This document shows positions 3,130 to 9,892 of a stretch of DNA of 9,892 nucleotides, piece after piece. The position numbers were made by a program, and so were the translations under genes. Location of the stretch: positions 1 to 9,892 of the forward strand of contig JAFGBW010000294.1 of the NCBI GenBank assembly GCA_016932965.1, written 5' to 3'. The DNA is from Candidatus Auribacterota bacterium (GTDB taxonomy: Bacteria; Auribacterota; JAFGBW01). Each line of letters opens with the position of its first letter. Within the stretch, counting starts at the first letter, position 1. Under the pieces are notes generated by a model, which was given only the letters and a program-made list of their open reading frames with translations, was not told the origin of the DNA and did not search any database.

Positions 3130-6100
3130 CTATTTTCTGAAGAAGTCAATATTTCTTGTTTTGATCTTCTCCCACTCTTTTTTTAACGTCTTATTCCGCA
3201 AGGAAGAAAGAGAAAAGATACGCTCCTCGGTTTCCGGGAGTAATCCAGCCAGTTTACTATTTTTTCCCGTTTCTTCATAAAGATGAAGAAGATTCATGCG
3301 TGAATACAGTTCGTTTTCAAACTCGCCGAGTTTTTGATGCAGCGAAATGGACTGCAGGTAATGTTCCTCAGCAGAAGGGAAATCCTTTTGTTGATAATAC
3401 AAATCCCCCAATAGCGCCAGAAATTGGGCCTCCCTGGAGGCCTCGCCAAGGGTCCGGCATAAATCAAGGGCTTTGGTATAATAGAGTTCCGCTTTTTCAG
3501 GCTGAGCCGAGAGATAAAGATTCCCCAAATTGGAGTAAGCAGCAATGGAGATGGATCTTTCCCCGATTTCCTGGGAAAGGGAAAGGCATTGGGAATACGA
3601 CTGTTCCGCCTGTTTCAATAAATCCATGGCATAGTACACATTACCAAGATTATTTAAAATATGCAGTCTCAGCGAAAGATCCCCGATTTCCTCGCTGAAT
3701 TGCTTTGCATAAAGAAAGCCCTTCTCCGCCAGACGGTATTTCTTCTGGTGATAGTAGATGAGAGCAATATTGTTATAACAGCTGGAAATGCCTGAAATGT
3801 CACCGTCCAGCTTGTATTGCTGGAGACTTTTTTTATAATACTGCAAAGCCTCCTGATACCTGTCACGGCTAAAATAGGCATTGCCGATGGTTTTGAATGC
3901 CAATGCCCTGGCTGAAGGATTCCCTGCTTTTTCCGACCAATGCCATGCATTCTTACCATGCCGTTCCGCTTCCAAGTACAAACCTTCATGGTAATAGACG
4001 TCGGCAATGAGGGACTCAATCCTGCTTTTTAAAAGAGAATCTATCGTTTCCTCGCTGGCCTTCTCAAGGAGTTTCAGGGATTGGGAATAATGCCCCAGTT
4101 TAAAATGGACCGTTCCGAGAGCGTGTTTCGAAAAAGGAGTATCCGGTAAAGAACCAATGATTTTAATGGCCTGGTTATATTCCCCCAAAAGCGTCAGGAC
4201 ATCACCATAACAGAATAAAGCCTGATGGTATACGGCAAGCAGTTTTTCTTTGTTTTCCTCATCCAGTTCCTCCCATAATGGAAGGACCTGTTCAAACAGT
4301 TTTTTTGCTTCCCTACTGGCATGCTTATCATGATTTTTTACAGCGCTTTCCACCCCGTATCGGAAAGCTTTATCTGTGATTCTGGCTTCAAGGGAATGAT
4401 AAAAGAGAAATTCCGGATTTTCACATTTTCCCCGGGTCAGTTCGGATTCTGCGTGTTCCACGATTTTTAAATGCAGGCGACGCTGGCGGGTCTGGCTCAA
4501 TGGCAAGGACAGGACCCTGCGGATATTGGGGCTGATAAATTGATATTGTTCGGTCTTGGAATCCGTGATTTCCTCAAGAATGCCATGAGACACGGCTTCA
4601 TCCAGAATATCCAGAAGATATCCTTCATTTTTTTCACTGATTGATTTGAGAAACTCGAATGAAAACCTGTTGCCTATGACCGAAGCAATCTGGAGGATGT
4701 TCTTTATATCGTCGGAGAGCCCTTCCATCTGTTCCAGGATAAGATCTTTGATTTTTTCCGGTAAGGCAAGAGACTTGCATTTATCGACGCTCCATCCTGA
4801 AGAACCAGGGAAAAGAATACGTTCCTGTATCATTTTAAAAAGGATTTCACGGATAAATAAAGGGTTGCCTTCACCCTGTTCCAGGAGAACCGTCTCAATT
4901 TCAGCGAGATCTTCAGGATTTTCAGTATGAAATAATTTATAAATAAGTTTTCGGACAGCATCAGCTTTGAGTGCCGAAAGGATGATTTCAACCGGAGCCG
5001 TGATCCTTTCCAGATGCTTCATCCATTTATAAAATTCAGCAAAGGATGATTTTTCTTTTGAAAAAGGACATGTACAGATGACCGCCATCTGGCTTTGTGT
5101 GCTTTGCTGGACCAGGTGGGATATAAATTCAGCGGTAGCAGAATCAATCCAGTGTATGTCTTCAATAATCACGACACAAGGAGCATGCTGAGACAATGAT
5201 TTCAATAAATGGGTGATTCCGTAATACAGATACGGCAGGCCTTCCGGATCTTTACCGGATTCCTGCCCGGCTCTCTTATGAGGCAGGTCCATTTCCGGAA
5301 GGAGTTTCATGATCTCCTTCTGTTCTTTTTTTGAAAGATCTGAGAGCAGTTTCAAGAAAAGCCCTTTGTTCTTTTCAAACCACTGCATCAAGAGATCAAT
5401 GAGAGGCTGGAACGGAATTTCCACTTCATGAATCAGGCACCTGGAATGCAGGACAAAAACATCCGGACCTATTTCATGAAGCAGTTCTGTCAGAATCCTC
5501 GTTTTTCCCATTCCGGAATCACCTTTTAGAAGCATGAAGACGCTTTGTTTAGTGTCCCGGATCCGGAGGCAATTTTTTTTCAGCTCTTTGAGTTCATTTT
5601 CTCTTCCTACAAACGGAAAATGAAAAAGGACCGTGGGTGAAACGCTTTGTTGAAGGACTTGTCTGGCTTCAGAAGCAAGGCATGCTATCCCTCTGCCTTT
5701 TTCCTTGGCCAGGTATAATCCCTTGTCTGCGGATTGAATGAGATCCTCTACACAGGCCGCATCGTCGGGGAAAATGGCAATCCCGCAGGAAGTACCCACC
5801 ATGACCTTGACGTGGTTTTTTGTTCCCTTGAAGGGATTGGACAGCAAACTGCTGAACACGCGCTGGACGACGGTTTTGGCTTCATTCAGGGAAGTATCAG
5901 GAAGAATCAAAAAAAATTCATCACCGGCAAAACGGATCACAATGTCGCGGGAACGGACGGACTGGCGTAGAATATCGGAAAACCAAAGCAATGCCTGGTC
6001 TCCCTCTCTATGACCATACGTATCGTTTACTTCCTTGAAATGGTCCAGATCCATCATGACCAGGCAAAAAGAAAGTCCTTTTTTCCGGCTTCGTTCGATT

Positions 6101-6207
6101 TCCTGCTGGAGGCGCAAATTGAGGTATCGCCTGTTATATAAGCCGGTCAGATCATCGGTCAAGACCTGGGTTTCCAGGGCATTTAAATCATTGGGATTGG
6201 GGCTCAC
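3130..6207 (-). CDS. GGDEF domain fused to STAND-like ATPase and TPR repeats
   Basis: A 1025-residue protein with no signal peptide or membrane segment, so probably cytoplasmic. The GGDEF domain (about 14-176) starts with LTDDLTGLYNRRYL. It has metal-binding D53, the VNDTYGH motif (60-66), AGDEF at 94-98 in place of GGDEF, and an RxxD inhibitory site (R85-D88) at the normal five-residue distance. A STAND/AAA_16-like ATPase follows (about 198-460) with FVGRENEL (199-206), Walker A GDSGMGKT (229-236), Walker B VVIIED (345-350) then IHWID, and GEGNPLFIREIL (445-456). Winged-helix-like sequence runs to about 570. TPR-type helix pairs fill about 660-965, with at least six repeats at roughly 40-residue spacing. 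I infer a cyclic-di-GMP synthase gated by ligand binding to the TPR/ATPase part. AGDEF cyclases are known to be able to act. Start: GTG 6207, after an in-frame TGA; it overlaps the small gene upstream by 20 bases and lacks its own good Shine-Dalgarno. Confidence 0.92.
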   Translation of the reverse strand: MSPNPNDLNALETQVLTDDLTGLYNRRYLNLRLQQEIERSRKKGLSFCLVMMDLDHFKEVNDTYGHREGDQALLWFSDILRQSVRSRDIVIRFAGDEFFLILPDTSLNEAKTVVQRVFSSLLSNPFKGTKNHVKVMVGTSCGIAIFPDDAACVEDLIQSADKGLYLAKEKGRGIACLASEARQVLQQSVSPTVLFHFPFVGRENELKELKKNCLRIRDTKQSVFMLLKGDSGMGKTRILTELLHEIGPDVFVLHSRCLIHEVEIPFQPLIDLLMQWFEKNKGLFLKLLSDLSKKEQKEIMKLLPEMDLPHKRAGQESGKDPEGLPYLYYGITHLLKSLSQHAPCVVIIEDIHWIDSATAEFISHLVQQSTQSQMAVICTCPFSKEKSSFAEFYKWMKHLERITAPVEIILSALKADAVRKLIYKLFHTENPEDLAEIETVLLEQGEGNPLFIREILFKMIQERILFPGSSGWSVDKCKSLALPEKIKDLILEQMEGLSDDIKNILQIASVIGNRFSFEFLKSISEKNEGYLLDILDEAVSHGILEEITDSKTEQYQFISPNIRRVLSLPLSQTRQRRLHLKIVEHAESELTRGKCENPEFLFYHSLEARITDKAFRYGVESAVKNHDKHASREAKKLFEQVLPLWEELDEENKEKLLAVYHQALFCYGDVLTLLGEYNQAIKIIGSLPDTPFSKHALGTVHFKLGHYSQSLKLLEKASEETIDSLLKSRIESLIADVYYHEGLYLEAERHGKNAWHWSEKAGNPSARALAFKTIGNAYFSRDRYQEALQYYKKSLQQYKLDGDISGISSCYNNIALIYYHQKKYRLAEKGFLYAKQFSEEIGDLSLRLHILNNLGNVYYAMDLLKQAEQSYSQCLSLSQEIGERSISIAAYSNLGNLYLSAQPEKAELYYTKALDLCRTLGEASREAQFLALLGDLYYQQKDFPSAEEHYLQSISLHQKLGEFENELYSRMNLLHLYEETGKNSKLAGLLPETEERIFSLSSLRNKTLKKEWEKIKTRNIDFFRK

Positions 6208-6310
6208 CTGTTTTGACGGCTTTTTTCATTTCACGGACTCTTTCCTTACGCCGTTTGATCTGGCGGATTCTACGTCTTTTTTTTTCCATTTTATTGTATT
6301 GTTTACCCAT
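6188..6310 (-). CDS. Short, very basic protein (40 aa), operon partner of the GGDEF protein
   Basis: ATG at 6310 to TGA at 6190-6188 encodes 40 residues beginning MGKQYNKMEKKRRR. Nearly half of residues 1-33 are Lys or Arg, and the pattern suggests one long basic helix with a short polar tail. A clear GGAG (6319-6322) lies eight bases upstream of the ATG, good support for translation. Its last 20 bases overlap the GTG start of the GGDEF/STAND gene in another frame, so that start is probably translationally coupled to it. From memory, short proteins beginning MGKQYNK with a basic RRR-rich core recur in several little-studied phyla, but I cannot verify this here. A role with RNA or the ribosome would suit the charge, but is a guess. 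The coding sequence includes a run of nine A (6285-6277), a possible slippage site; a slip into the downstream frame would meet a TGA, so it would not make a fusion. Confidence 0.7.
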   Translation of the reverse strand: MGKQYNKMEKKRRRIRQIKRRKERVREMKKAVKTGEPQSQ

Positions 6311-6435
6311 GCTGTTGTCTCCATTTGTTCTTTTATATTTTATGGCCTATTGCATACTGAAATATAACCATTCCGGCAATCATATTATGCATTTTCTTTA
6401 ACGATTTCGCCTGAAACGGCGTAACATCACATATA

Positions 6436-9658: not shown

Positions 9659-9892
9659 TTAAGGGGGGAATCGACCCAGGCTTTTTGACGGACGATAGGA
9701 GTAATGATCCATTCGCCAGGTTTTTATTATTTCTTCAGTCTGCCATAAGAATCCAAAACCGTTTTCCTCCAGGAATGCTTCACTCAATCGACCGTTGAAG
9801 CTTTCTATAAAGCGTCCCTAGTCTGGCTTTTCAAGCTGAATATCATCAGTAACAACTGATCGATTTTCTCCTAAAAGCTGTTGTTAGAAAGA
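9659..9892 (-). pseudogene. IS3-family transposase C-terminal remnant with internal stops
   Basis: On the minus strand from the right edge, one frame reads LEKPD, a stop, then GRFIESFNGRLSEAFLEENG, and later IIKTWRMDHYSYRPSKSLG before TAA at 9659-9661. This matches the end of IS3-type integrase-core transposases: GKPxQNAFIESFNGRLRDECLN, then W..DYN..RPHSSLGYLTP. The Glu in FIESFNG is the third residue of the DDE triad. A TAG replaces the expected Gln before GRFIESFNG, another in-frame TAA lies close to the right edge, and the final RPHSSLGY region is altered. The gene is therefore decayed, unless the rest beyond the edge tells otherwise. The first two catalytic acids lie outside the window. 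It marks an old mobile-element insertion downstream of the GT-C gene. Confidence 0.8.

Follow-up and report, generated by a model that had tools for sequence, protein, structure and literature searches.

The frame at positions 6188 to 6310 of the window (the whole stretch of 9,892 nucleotides analyzed here), read on the minus strand, is by its sequence relationships a genuine gene rather than a chance frame; what is new here is that its product, of 40 amino acids, is a member of a widespread family of bacterial proteins, very small and strongly basic, that apparently has no name yet. In its distribution the gene is independent of the GGDEF/STAND gene whose start it overlaps, and we somewhat favor a housekeeping role in RNA binding for the protein, probably in association with the ribosome. 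The features on which the argument draws are listed below.

6188..6310, minus strand: small basic gene, 40 amino acids, stop codon included (list of open reading frames, homologs, score against shuffles)
6230..6310, minus strand: conserved core, residues 1 to 27, with the arm MG(K/R)QYN(K/R) followed by the predicted basic helix KRxRRxxYLKRKK (column counts, alignment A2, AlphaFold model)
6188..6229, minus strand: variable C-terminal tail, residues 28 to 40 and the stop, its final codons overlapping the next gene (alignment A2)
6319..6322, minus strand: GGAG, Shine-Dalgarno-like, 8 bases 5' of the ATG of the small gene (from the sequence)
3130..6207, minus strand: downstream neighbor encoding a GGDEF, AAA_16/STAND-like ATPase, and TPR protein, with a GTG start and a 20-base overlap; unlinked by conservation (Pfam, start check)

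Reality and distribution of the small gene

Rereading of 6188 to 6310 on the minus strand agreed exactly with the preliminary description, which had given an ATG start, a Lys/Arg-rich product of 40 amino acids, a well-spaced GGAG, and a 20-base overlap with a GTG start. The GGAG occupies 6322 to 6319, 8 bases from the ATG, and 6188 to 6207 are common to both genes. The product encoded by 6310 to 6188, from ATG to TGA, is MGKQYNKMEKKRRRIRQIKRRKERVREMKKAVKTGEPQSQ; it contains 42.5% Lys plus Arg and has a pI of 11.6 and a charge of about +12.5. Since the window as a whole holds 101 frames of at least 30 amino acids, length and basicity alone are no evidence for this one. Rfam and tRNA searches of the window found nothing, and scans for consensus promoters and terminators gave no more matches than in shuffles.

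A profile of 18 family members, from which the window protein and all sequences of its own phylum had been left out, scored the window protein at 41.6 bits, while none of 20,000 shuffles that kept its composition exceeded 16.6. The codons of the family are under purifying selection: in closely related pairs, pN/pS, computed only over codons left free by the search pattern, was 0.26 in frame and, with the reading frame shifted, 1.36 and 1.22. Positions that the pattern left free were nearly invariant among the 96 distinct 27-residue cores found among the matches listed (R14 in 93, R20 in 95, and Y17 in 77). It is this homology, together with the selection in the family, that carries the frame beyond chance; we regard a spurious open reading frame, for which the wealth of frames of 30 to 60 amino acids in the window might speak, as a negligible prospect and one that the shuffle comparison and the in-frame pN/pS already refute. 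The earlier proposal of an overlooked but real small gene is thus borne out by homologs in many genomes, occurrence in single copy, and constraint at the codon level.

A first search of relatives returned one fair match to the small protein, and the weak matches of that pass (L003 and L005 to L007) were taken as chance. Clear homologs of the 40-residue product were found within the phylum in G012 (MGRQYNRRIKRARSRARLKRRKEGLKLKKAA...), G013 (MGRQYNRREKRTRKKQYIKRKKAALKKAK), G005 (MGRQYNRRIKRKKTKARLKRKAKMIRLKKAS...), and G006 (MGQQHNAREKRARKKAYIKKTKKTTAKNKKES); all four begin at the same Met behind good ribosome-binding sites with a strong Shine-Dalgarno sequence (AAGGAG), and they were recovered by profile, with E values of 1e-11 to 1e-12, as well as by single-sequence search. 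The window protein itself, in its own genome (G000), gave an E value of 1.1e-11 with a profile including its own row. With G000 counted, 5 of the 43 genomes of the phylum have a clear family member; profile searches of these genomes did not detect the gene in most of them, the two remaining members of the window's order among these, and it is either non-universal in the phylum or diverged beyond detection. A diverged form, MSKPHRVxxKRxRRxxYLKRxR, occurs at its own ATG in three genomes of family f8 of the same phylum (L135, L136, and L137), with MSKPHR in place of MGKQYN and the basic core kept.

Beyond the phylum, a DNA motif pattern applied to 84,980 species genomes gave at least 118 stretches, nearly all from Verrucomicrobiota or Lentisphaerae by title; the single members in Planctomycetota, KSB1, Calditrichota, and Gemmatimonadota, likewise assigned by record title, may each come from a misbinned contig. 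Of 288 Verrucomicrobiota genomes, 160 match the 23-row profile A2 at an E value of ≤0.001, a lower bound given the looseness of the first filter. Every matching genome has exactly one match, as does G000; the family is single copy per genome. Elsewhere in the domain, among 384 relatives, six genomes of families f91, f95, and f185 carry clear forms with a Shine-Dalgarno sequence, MGKRYNPREKRKRRKRYIKRQRKK and MGRQWRVREKRKRRKAREKRRKKK among them. Because TIGR04137, which we take to be the family of the PVC signature protein CT421.2, is undetected in these six carriers, the small-gene family probably extends beyond the PVC bacteria. Omnitrophota as a separate carrier phylum was considered and withdrawn, the phylum group of G061 being largely the same set as that of the Akkermansia genome G059; the locus in G061 (L026) is titled Candidatus Omnitrophota yet is grouped in the phylum of the Akkermansia-titled G059, a disagreement between title and grouping.

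The family consensus is MG(K/R)QYNKxxKRxRRxxYLKRKK, and in alignment A2 the window protein shares its N-terminal MG(K/R/Q)QYN and the KRxRR and KRKK blocks that follow. The AlphaFold2 model consists of an extended arm (residues 1 to 6) and a single helix (residues 7 to 34), with a mean pLDDT of 85. The tails after the core vary in sequence and length in alignment A2; among the matches listed, 86 of 116 complete members have at most 46 amino acids and no long tail. A further 26 of the 116 have 80 amino acids or more, with Lys/Ala-rich, histone-H1-like tails after the core; these include L013, L019, L042, L044, L106, L119, and others, from Roseibacillus, Akkermansia-titled, and other Verrucomicrobiae records. 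A separate observation comes from the 60-base stretch 5' of the start codon in the family: a motif, (AA)GTAAAG, lies a few bases 5' of the ATG in 26 of 119 listed pattern-matched loci, mostly Verrucomicrobiota by title (L014, L016, L026, L041, and L049 are examples). Most of these 26 loci have a CATA(G/T)T-like box farther upstream and no Shine-Dalgarno sequence, and the two elements could be a promoter combined with a noncanonical initiation or regulatory element.

Searches of known families returned no match holding family-wide in NCBIfam or PHROGs, none above cutoff in Pfam, and, for the family profile, no PDB chain at an E value of ≤10, single-sequence matches to PDB being at chance level; a text search of the available literature for the family motif gave no match. 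Three candidates were rejected. FlgM (PF04316) reached 14.6 bits against a gathering score of 25 and matched 1 of 23 family members. DUF6800 (PF20607; gathering score, 25 bits) also matched 1 of 23 members (E value, 0.002), the window protein not being that one, and had no match over cutoff within the window's phylum. TIGR04137 (Chlam_Ver_rRNA) was not matched by the small protein in the NCBIfam search; it matches a separate gene of G000 at C300:1350-1499 (69 bits; cutoff, 50), and hhalign gave a probability of 0.1% for a relation between the two.

Possible functions of the small protein

Our preference for an RNA-binding housekeeping protein is based on the polar conserved arm, the helix dense in Lys and Arg, the one copy per genome, and the selection acting at the protein level. 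The arm MGKQYN and the basic helix (approximately residues 7 to 34) would bind structured RNA, most likely rRNA, and the protein would serve the ribosome or its assembly as an accessory component, similar to bS22 and eL41 in size and chemistry; in this genome its gene stands first before the GGDEF/STAND gene, whose start falls in the variable tail. A precedent is bS22 of Borrelia, a tiny, unannotated protein with 61% Lys/Arg that sits in a pocket of the 16S rRNA (PMC10618245). Like bS22 and eL41 (about 25 to 40 amino acids), which are extremely rich in Lys and Arg, consist essentially of one helix, and are easily missed in annotation (PMC10618245), the small protein is very short, Lys/Arg-rich, and predicted to form a single helix. 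Unlike bS22, eL41, and mS38 (the AURKAIP1/COX24 C-terminal type), it has the conserved arm and is known here from sequence and model; identity with bS22 or mS38 was not found by sequence, there being no PDB chain for the profile, as above, and no COX24_C-type match in Pfam.

A second comparison is with CT421.2, a small, basic protein of about 53 amino acids or more for which an RNA-binding role has been suggested (PMC3444138; PMC7203096). The two share small size, basicity, and occurrence across PVC bacteria, along with a proposed RNA-binding housekeeping role (PMC3444138; PMC7203096), but the small gene is a different gene with no detectable profile relation to TIGR04137, and its family is also present where TIGR04137 is undetected.

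The ribosomal part of the reading draws some support from gene neighborhoods, since translation genes (rimO, a YacP-like NYN gene, rlmI, and yebC) adjoin the small gene in some Verrucomicrobiota lineages. The neighbors change with lineage, however: among the matches listed, an M23 peptidase gene was found at 25 loci, RimO at 17, YacP-like NYN at 13, Rho at 12, RlmI at 11, and YebC at 7, so that M23 peptidase and Rho are as frequent beside the small gene as translation genes are, and the links are lineage specific and phylogenetically nonindependent. The absence of any profile match to a solved ribosomal chain in PDB (E value, ≤10) and the failure to detect the gene in most of its own phylum, both other genomes of the order included, also argue against a ribosomal role. 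We put forward tentatively that the protein, which is common in Verrucomicrobiota and also occurs in several other phyla, is an unrecognized part of the ribosome or a factor for its assembly or hibernation, and that it has been missed because it has about 30 to 40 residues and is unmodeled in the family databases checked. If it is ribosomal or binds rRNA, the translation apparatus of Verrucomicrobiota (Akkermansia among them) and of other little-studied phyla would gain a component, and a conserved single-copy gene would have been left unnamed by family-based annotation.

Chief among the alternatives is a nucleoid-associated protein, or one that binds nucleic acids in general, the basic helix of which would neutralize or bridge DNA as a minimal protein of the histone H1 type. 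We consider this rather unlikely. A charge of +12.5 and a pI of 11.6 in 40 amino acids would suit such a protein, as would the 26 long-tailed members, whose KKAAKKA tails in Verrucomicrobiae resemble those of Lys/Ala-rich, histone-H1-like bacterial proteins; the conserved core of the family, however, forms a module of its own, and most listed members (the 86 of at most 46 amino acids) have no long tail. Moreover, the strict conservation of the arm (G2, Q4, Y5, and N6) exceeds what bulk DNA binding would need, and no nucleoid-protein family was matched in Pfam or NCBIfam. A small regulatory peptide, such as an antitoxin or a leader peptide, whose effect would come from its translation and not from a stable product, is improbable: the small size and, in one genome, the position before another gene would fit, but the protein sequence is conserved across phyla in single copy per genome while the downstream genes differ, and the family consensus had no match in the plasmid collection.

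The GGDEF/STAND neighbor

The GTG at 6207 is a plausible start for the GGDEF/STAND gene because 5' of it the frame stays open for just 6 codons, the next ATG already falls within the GGDEF domain, and alignments with homologous GGDEF/STAND proteins begin at query residue 8 or 9. As no Shine-Dalgarno-like sequence precedes this GTG, coupled translation of the two genes is possible in this genome. The preliminary description had gone further and raised the idea of a small basic protein that feeds a second-messenger operon, an idea that did not hold up when other genomes were compared. Within the phylum, homologs of the GGDEF/STAND protein were found only in G007, G014, and G021 (aligned along most of its length at 32% identity), and none of the three has a clear member of the small-gene family; other genes lie upstream of the homolog in G014 and G007, the gene start in G021 falling off the end of the locus. 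The small-gene carriers G005, G006, G012, and G013, for their part, have no GGDEF/STAND homolog at an E value of ≤1e-40, and in the two f6 genomes a polysaccharide deacetylase gene, identified from its sequence, lies beside the small gene in divergent orientation. Neither conserved linkage nor co-occurrence with the GGDEF/STAND gene was thus found.

Because the adjacency is seen in this genome alone and the neighbors of the small gene differ by lineage, the arrangement is most likely accidental. That the small protein serves the GGDEF/STAND protein locally, as a translationally coupled partner or regulator, would be suggested by the 20-base overlap on the same strand and the GTG lacking a Shine-Dalgarno sequence; with each gene occurring in genomes where the other is not clearly present, different genes in the two readable regions upstream of the GGDEF/STAND homologs, and different neighbors of the small gene in other lineages, we judge it highly improbable. 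An apparent operon built on one adjacency can be accidental. Elsewhere in the window, 9659 to 9787 (minus strand) is likely what is left of an insertion-sequence transposase, judged by eye to be IS3-like, with a weak match to the rve_3 integrase core (16.1 bits, below cutoff).
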